A stretch of 64,000 nt of DNA, from NCBI RefSeq assembly GCF_004087915.1, contig NZ_CP035108.1:1922001-1986000 (forward strand). Reading direction: 5' to 3'. The notes below the pieces were generated by a model, which did no database searches, was not told the DNA's origin, and saw only the letters and a list, made by a program, of their open reading frames with translations. The stretch is from Geovibrio thiophilus (GTDB lineage: Bacteria; Chrysiogenota; Deferribacteres; Deferribacterales; Geovibrionaceae). The position numbers and the translations under genes were made by a program. Each line of letters starts with the position of its first letter. The stretch's first letter is position 1. This document shows positions 27,486 to 27,594 of the stretch, in pieces.

Positions 27486-27594
27486 AAATGCGGATCTGCG
27501 GGTCTGCGTTATTTGTTTGTACAAGACGCTTTTGCGTCCTTATTTGAAAAAAACGCTAACCCGCAGCTTTTCGGGCTGGGGGTGCGGAGGTTGT
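27486..27594 (+). ncRNA. structured 5' leader of nrdJ, candidate cis-regulatory RNA
   Basis: Nested complementarity: CTGCGGGT (27496-27503) with ACCCGCAG (27559-27566); inside it GCGTT (27506-27510) with AACGC (27552-27556); and at the tip GACGC-TTTT-GCGTC (27525-27538). The 3' arm of the outer stem can instead join CCGCAGC (27561-27567) to GCTG...CGG (27575-27587), a fold that reaches the Shine-Dalgarno GGAGG at 27586-27590. Two exclusive folds next to the start codon suggest translational control. It does not show an obvious cobalamin-riboswitch B12 box. Confidence 0.45.

Follow-up and report, generated by a model that had tools for sequence, protein, structure and literature searches.

The gene nrdJ of Geovibrio thiophilus is preceded by a long stretch of non-coding DNA, and the question is whether the RNA read from it is a switch with two alternating folds, as a sequence-only reading had proposed. 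Positions are those of the window, the whole 64,000-nucleotide stretch of DNA analysed. From its frame and profile matches, nrdJ (27595-29898, + strand) encodes a class II vitamin B12-dependent ribonucleotide reductase of 767 aa (NF006417, 1212.9 bits, cut-off 961; TIGR02504, 757.8 bits, cut-off 399.95). The listed open frame begins at an upstream TTG; the ATG at 27595 was chosen as the start by its Shine-Dalgarno sequence (GGAGG, 27586-27590, + strand), which is invariant in the three species compared. These are G. thiophilus (genome G000) and two members of the same genus (G001 and G002); G003 belongs to a sister genus. The upstream neighbour of nrdJ encodes an Rrf2-family regulator (26652-27086, + strand; TIGR00738, 114.4 bits over 73.3). 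The two genes are separated by 508 non-coding nt, and the structured element occupies the nrdJ-proximal end of this gap.

No reading frame was open throughout the gap in the three species, and a protein-coding gap or a leader peptide was rejected, as no frame is kept through it. The 19-codon frame from the ATG at 27488 keeps its start and stop in G001, but the peptide is mostly different, and by eye no Shine-Dalgarno sequence lies ahead of its start. A conserved coding upstream frame, as in leader-peptide attenuation, was not found in the nrdJ leader.

Hairpins between the Rrf2 gene and nrdJ

The three nested stems named by the sequence-only reading form all of their pairs in the G. thiophilus sequence (27496-27503 with 27559-27566, 8/8; 27506-27510 with 27552-27556, 5/5; 27525-27529 with 27534-27538, 5/5). 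This nested fold is the lowest-energy structure of 27486-27610 (-45.2 kcal/mol; mean of the shuffles -34.8; z -3.36), and none of 200 shuffles was equally low. Its outermost stem is a long-range helix (27496-27566, + strand). The second fold proposed by the same reading exists as well, but its right arm had been drawn too long at 27575-27587 and does not cover the Shine-Dalgarno sequence: it joins 27559-27567 with 27575-27583 (8/9 pairs), extended by 27554-27556 with 27584-27586, and so contacts just the first G of GGAGG. This hairpin, P3 (27559-27583, + strand), abuts the Shine-Dalgarno sequence. Another hairpin of the lowest-energy fold is P2 (GACGC-UUUU-GCGUC, 27525-27538, + strand).

A third competitor had been missed. 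P1 (27487-27510, + strand) pairs 27487-27496 with 27501-27510 in ten pairs and has bases in common with the long-range helix, which competes with both P1 and P3. P1 is terminator-like in shape, with A-rich sequence on its 5' side and a U-rich tail (27510-27520, + strand; from sequence and alignment) that holds more U in G001. With a TransTermHP-type formula, the tail scores -2.89 in G. thiophilus and -3.33 in G001. P1 is among the nine terminator-like sites found on both strands of 26500-28000, where 1.7 were expected. Two further pairings were discarded. Anti-Shine-Dalgarno pairing of 27503-27509 with 27583-27589 is possible on paper and invariant, and it had a probability of 0.000 in nine of nine models; pairing of the P3 loop with the Shine-Dalgarno sequence as a pseudoknot was dropped by inference, because the 2-nt link is too short to span the stem.

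Further upstream, the scan gave a candidate promoter (TTGACG-17-TAACAT, 27154-27182, + strand) that is conserved in all three species; the scan by itself was not significant (four sites against 2.6 expected). The candidate is matched in G003 behind an Rrf2 ORF (52 nt, 75% identity, E 0.011), where it stands before a different gene and not directly before nrdJ. The gene between this shared promoter and nrdJ in G003 is, by eye, ornithine-cyclodeaminase-like (L049:1687-2676) and has no match in the G. thiophilus genome. Downstream of the candidate lie a long hairpin, HP-A (27224-27309, + strand), with a strand-favoured z and two pairs changed on both sides (a count reached by 55 of 500 shuffles), and HP-B (27318-27342, + strand; 27318-27325 with 27335-27342), in which 95.8% of the alignment cells pair with no double change. 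T1 (27446-27480, + strand) is a palindromic, terminator-like hairpin (AAAATA..GGGAA/TTCCC..TATTTT) with a strong z on both strands. Its tail score is weak in G. thiophilus (-1.41; -3.02 in G001), the spacing of its GGGAA/TTCCC half-sites is fixed in all three species, and it can alternatively be read as containing a -10-like TATATT at 27473-27478. The non-coding stretch 27087-27486, with its conserved promoter candidate and HP-A, might encode a separate small RNA.

Folding signal, kept pairs and modelled competition

The structural signal was compared with background in 120-nt windows, each with 60 column shuffles (231 scored windows, sampled every 240 nt). The consensus-fold z of 27481-27600 was -5.39, below all 231 background windows (mean -0.43, sd 1.18, minimum -4.05). 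In a denser scan, whose 172 windows covered the gaps as well as four RNA genes and gave an alignable window for 17 of the 24 gaps, the nrdJ gap had the lowest z of these 17 (-5.88). The second lowest, -5.65 at 30589-30669, is a plain terminator, so a terminator would account for the share of the signal that comes from P1; with P1 excluded, 27521-27594 still reached -4.32. Further low consensus-fold z values were observed at 41281-41400 (-4.05) and 45243-45362 (-4.61). Sequence conservation was rejected as evidence for the leader, because its identity is near background: 0.84 and 0.93 in the leader core, compared with 0.82 and 0.86 in coding DNA and with gap medians of 0.785 and 0.83 that were computed across entire gaps together with their unaligned parts.

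Strand comparisons divided the region. P1 (z -4.23 on the + strand vs. -1.28 on the - strand) and HP-A (-3.71 vs. -1.75) folded better on the mRNA strand, and T1 scored on both (-5.02 vs. -4.04). The P3 region 27552-27594 (-3.22 vs. -5.11), the stretch 27521-27594 (-4.32 vs. -4.60), the whole leader core 27488-27594 (-4.30 vs. -4.77) and 27313-27446 (-1.76 vs. -2.59) scored lower on the - strand.

Conservation tests rested on a three-row alignment of G. thiophilus, G001 and G002. P1 pairs in 24 of 24 alignment cells and extended P3 in 31 of 33. The P1 loop changes from UGCG (4 nt) in G. thiophilus to GGGCAA (6 nt) in G001 while the stem is kept; P1 retains both its stem and its U-rich tail in the relatives, as a transcription attenuator would. 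For P2, 80% of the cells pair on the MAFFT columns, and a GGCGC/GCGUC stem with a 5-nt loop is possible in G001. The P3 stem holds eight of nine pairs in each species, with G001 differing from each of the other two at six of the 18 bases. Random changes kept eight P3 pairs in 1.6-1.7% of trials when placed at random and in 3.3% when placed at the same positions, figures to be read with the caveat that the stem was picked by inspecting these very sequences. Two P3 pairs have both sides changed. With three rows, the pair changes of the local structure are not significant in the shuffle control (115/500).

The long-range helix fared less well. The nested fold pairs in 87.0% of the alignment cells, and the helix keeps 8/8 pairs in G. 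thiophilus, 7/8 in G002 and, in register, 5/8 in G001. The pairs at columns 10/82, 15/79 and 17/77 are lost in G001, and 10/82 is lost in G002 too. One of the five pairs kept in G001 has both sides changed, the inner GCGUU/AACGC is invariant in all three species, and the pair changes of the long-range helix and nested fold showed no excess over shuffles (281/500). The loss of three of eight pairs in G001 speaks against a two-state switch kept by evolution; among the three species compared, two exclusive folds both kept by evolution, as expected of a riboswitch, were not found.

Thermodynamic models gave a similar division. In G001, P1 and the core of P3 were predicted at 0.96-1.00 and GCGUU/AACGC at 0.00-0.01 for all three transcript ends tried. 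In G. thiophilus and G002 both folds were populated and exchanged with the chosen 3' end, and in G. thiophilus the competing folds lay near each other in model energy. With the 5' end at 27188, the G. thiophilus RNA had P1 at 1.00 for a 3' end at 27523, at 0.10 for 27570 (long-range helix 0.90), at 0.98 for 27594 and between 0.33 and 0.80 across 27600-27720. When the RNA instead began at 27486, the long-range fold dominated at 3' ends of at least 27612. The long-range fold reached 0.90-1.00 in RNA ending at 27570 and prevailed at many coding-region ends too. In the model, bistability is real in G. thiophilus and lacking in G001, and the G. thiophilus RNA may transiently adopt the long-range fold while it is being transcribed. 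For leaders from about 27188 that end at the U-tract, P1 had a probability of 1.00 in all three species, and no upstream antiterminator competitor of P1 was seen in these models.

Exposure of the Shine-Dalgarno sequence had no consistent tie to the fold across the models. The G. thiophilus RNA, when modelled from 27486, left most of GGAGG free in both folds; modelled from 27188, it kept GGAGG nearly hidden at 3' ends 27600, 27606 and 27630, where both folds coexist. For G002 RNA that stops at the start codon, four of the five Shine-Dalgarno bases were free at 0.30-0.31 and the local fold stood at 0.31, while at +60 the local fold rose to 0.90 and the exposure of those four bases was 0.27-0.64. 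The fold-dependent access suggested by the sequence-only reading is predicted in the leader-only model of G002 but is absent in G. thiophilus with the 5' end at 27486, and it varies with the transcript ends chosen.

Distribution of the leader and regulation of ribonucleotide reductase

A NrdJ search of 99 genomes found a match in 92, and upstream DNA was inspected at 30 loci. The leader is common to all three genomes of the genus and was not seen, by eye, at the nine family loci outside the genus (L004-L012). When 45 genomes of the order were searched with a leader covariance model (R1) under stricter filters, which lose some weak matches, the three genus members were recovered with E values of 3.2e-16 or lower, and the other 42 gave no credible match. 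In G003 and G020, R1 matched weakly (E 0.033 and 0.065), and both sites were set aside as ordinary terminators by eye, each with a GC-rich hairpin and a T-run. A model of the upstream part (R2), searched in 39 genomes of the order, matched the three genus members and, weakly, G022 (E 0.02). Further weak matches came from a DNA search (G004, G006 and G011, E 0.037-0.040). The G. thiophilus genome holds no second copy, the next best match having E 0.12 over 22 nt. Conservation among close relatives, on which the earlier proposal depended, holds within the genus and was not found outside it. In G005, too, nrdJ follows an Rrf2-like ORF, at a distance of some 250 nt by eye. No description of the nrdJ leader was found in the accessible text of the literature searched, with subscription journals mostly outside its scope.

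No Rfam family reached its gathering score in the leader, where chance-level matches alone appeared at E up to 10; the leaders L002 and L003 gave no listed Rfam match at E up to 1. A cobalamin riboswitch was matched neither in 27000-27900 (E up to 5) nor in 27100-27620 (E up to 10), while the same model, RF00174, found two sites elsewhere in the genome as a positive control. A cobalamin riboswitch or any other Rfam family in the leader was rejected for lack of a match. The remark of the sequence-only reading that a recognisable B12 box is lacking is in line with this: RF00174 membership takes a gathering score and a B12 box, and the leader does not qualify.

The cobalamin riboswitch stands instead before nrdD. 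In G. thiophilus it lies at C1:621371-621580 (L031), closely ahead of nrdD, whose match covers C1:622057-623913 and whose start codon is at L031:1824 (about C1:621694). Within a 1.5-kb flank, nrdD is directly behind a cobalamin riboswitch in 10 of 12 genomes of the family, the riboswitch not being seen in G003 and G007. The other site in G. thiophilus (C1:1796858-1797050, L032, - strand) precedes a gene that looks, by eye, like one for a CbiK-type cobaltochelatase. The accessible text of PMC545781 reports cobalamin riboswitch control of the B12-independent nrdDG in delta-proteobacteria. The expectation that a B12-dependent reductase would gain from cobalamin control at its own leader is weakened, and the main reason to expect a cobalamin switch on nrdJ is removed, because the riboswitch of this family sits before B12-independent nrdD.

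Other parts of the usual regulation were searched for as well. Ribonucleotide reductases in bacteria are commonly tuned through NrdR or, where the enzyme is B12-independent, by cobalamin riboswitches. TIGR00244, the NrdR model, had no match in the G. thiophilus genome and matched 9 of 14 control genomes, and G. thiophilus likewise gave no match to the class I small subunit (PF00268). Elsewhere in the window, 6S RNA was observed at 58723-58900 on the - strand (RF00013, 88.6 bits).

A proposed genus-specific leader and its rivals

The three-species comparison shows that the predicted pairing of P1 and P3 is kept and that P1 and HP-A have the better computed folds on the strand of the mRNA. It gives no support to a conserved two-state switch, though a switch may exist in two of the three species (G. 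thiophilus and G002). What precedes nrdJ is best read as a modest genus-specific leader RNA and not as a demonstrated switch, because just two of three related species have the two-way switch of the earlier proposal intact. Our preferred and tentative interpretation, with a probability of about 0.45, is a structured leader confined to the genus that carries a terminator-shaped attenuator hairpin and a hairpin next to the Shine-Dalgarno sequence. Transcription would most likely start near 27188, from the candidate promoter at 27154-27182, and the RNA would fold mainly into local hairpins, one after another (HP-A, HP-B, T1, P1, P2 and P3). P1, forming once transcribed, would end a share of the transcripts ahead of nrdJ, which would amount to attenuation, and P3, lying against the Shine-Dalgarno sequence, would trim initiation or protect the message. 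Such a leader would set the output level of nrdJ without toggling.

The leader reading is favoured by the extreme z, the kept pairing of P3, the strand bias of P1 and the double changes in HP-A, as well as by a gap that lacks an open frame and a promoter candidate that is conserved and matched in G003. Against it stand its presence in only three genomes, an identity near background and a plain terminator with nearly the same z. P3 and the leader core score as well or better on the other strand, the long-range fold is favoured in G. thiophilus at 27570 and at many coding-region ends, and neither the pair-change shuffles nor the promoter scan were significant. Moreover, a constant terminator before a needed gene would require read-through or a further promoter.

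A somewhat unlikely alternative is a small RNA gene running from 27188 to about 27480 or 27520 with T1 and P1 as tandem terminators, and nrdJ transcribed from a promoter in or after T1. P1 would then be either a terminator or a hairpin at the 5' end of the message, and P2 and P3 alone would surely belong to the nrdJ mRNA. The non-coding stretch, the better folding of HP-A on the + strand, the two consecutive terminator-shaped hairpins and the TATATT inside T1 agree with such a gene; however, TATATT has no good -35 by eye, 27313-27446 has no + strand preference (z -1.76 vs. -2.59), no Rfam small RNA reached its gathering score, and R2 is limited to the genus and one weak match among 39 genomes. 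It is unlikely that the hairpins have no regulatory importance at all, being ordinary UTR hairpins and a leftover terminator. Identity near background, the similar z of a plain terminator, the absence from the other genera searched and a P3 signal not bound to the mRNA strand would all fit, but the pairing of P3 survives six substitutions and the region has the lowest z of the sampled windows and scored gaps.

We consider quite unlikely the two-state translational switch of the sequence-only reading, in which long-range and local folds would alternate under a ligand or protein and alter access to the Shine-Dalgarno sequence. The modelled exchange of folds with the 3' end in G. thiophilus and G002, the complete helix in G. 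thiophilus with its five invariant inner pairs and one double change in G001, and the G002 leader-only model, in which the Shine-Dalgarno sequence is free about as often as the local fold forms, argue for it. It is opposed by the three lost pairs and the near-zero GCGUU/AACGC probability in G001, by pair changes within the shuffle range and by the ability of P1 to form before the downstream strand exists; in G. thiophilus the Shine-Dalgarno sequence is mostly free in both folds (5' end 27486) or, with the 5' end at 27188, nearly hidden at some ends while the folds coexist. Very unlikely is a leader of about 405 nt that acts as an unlisted RNA, sensing dNTPs or another signal in HP-A/HP-B, attenuating at P1 and substituting for NrdR. 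That the inverted repeats of P1 or T1 bind a repressor as DNA is extremely improbable: the fixed half-site spacing and the two-stranded score of T1 suit an operator, but the spacer of P1 differs in length between species (4 or 6 nt), the G-U pairs of P1 exist on one strand only, and the NrdR model has no match in the genome. For the control of nrdJ, the structured leader with its terminator-shaped hairpin offers one testable place to look; should it comprise just a terminator and a UTR hairpin, it would be ordinary.

Several known systems resemble the leader in part. The 2'-deoxyguanosine riboswitch precedes a ribonucleotide reductase gene in Mesoplasma. It would offer a deoxynucleotide signal for a reductase gene, but no purine or 2'-deoxyguanosine family was among the matches of the nrdJ leader. 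An nrdJ RNA motif is named among the Rfam-predicted elements of Streptomyces in the accessible text of PMC8388888; its name points to nrdJ, and a search of the Rfam 15 library as a whole gave no family at its gathering score in the leader. The cobalamin riboswitch (RF00174) has no match in the leader but directly precedes the sister reductase gene nrdD in 10 of 12 family genomes. Attenuators with an intrinsic terminator differ in that the nrdJ leader showed neither an antiterminator fold nor a leader peptide nor a ligand domain, but they share with it a long, non-coding leader and a hairpin of A-rich sequence, stem and U-rich tail placed before the gene.
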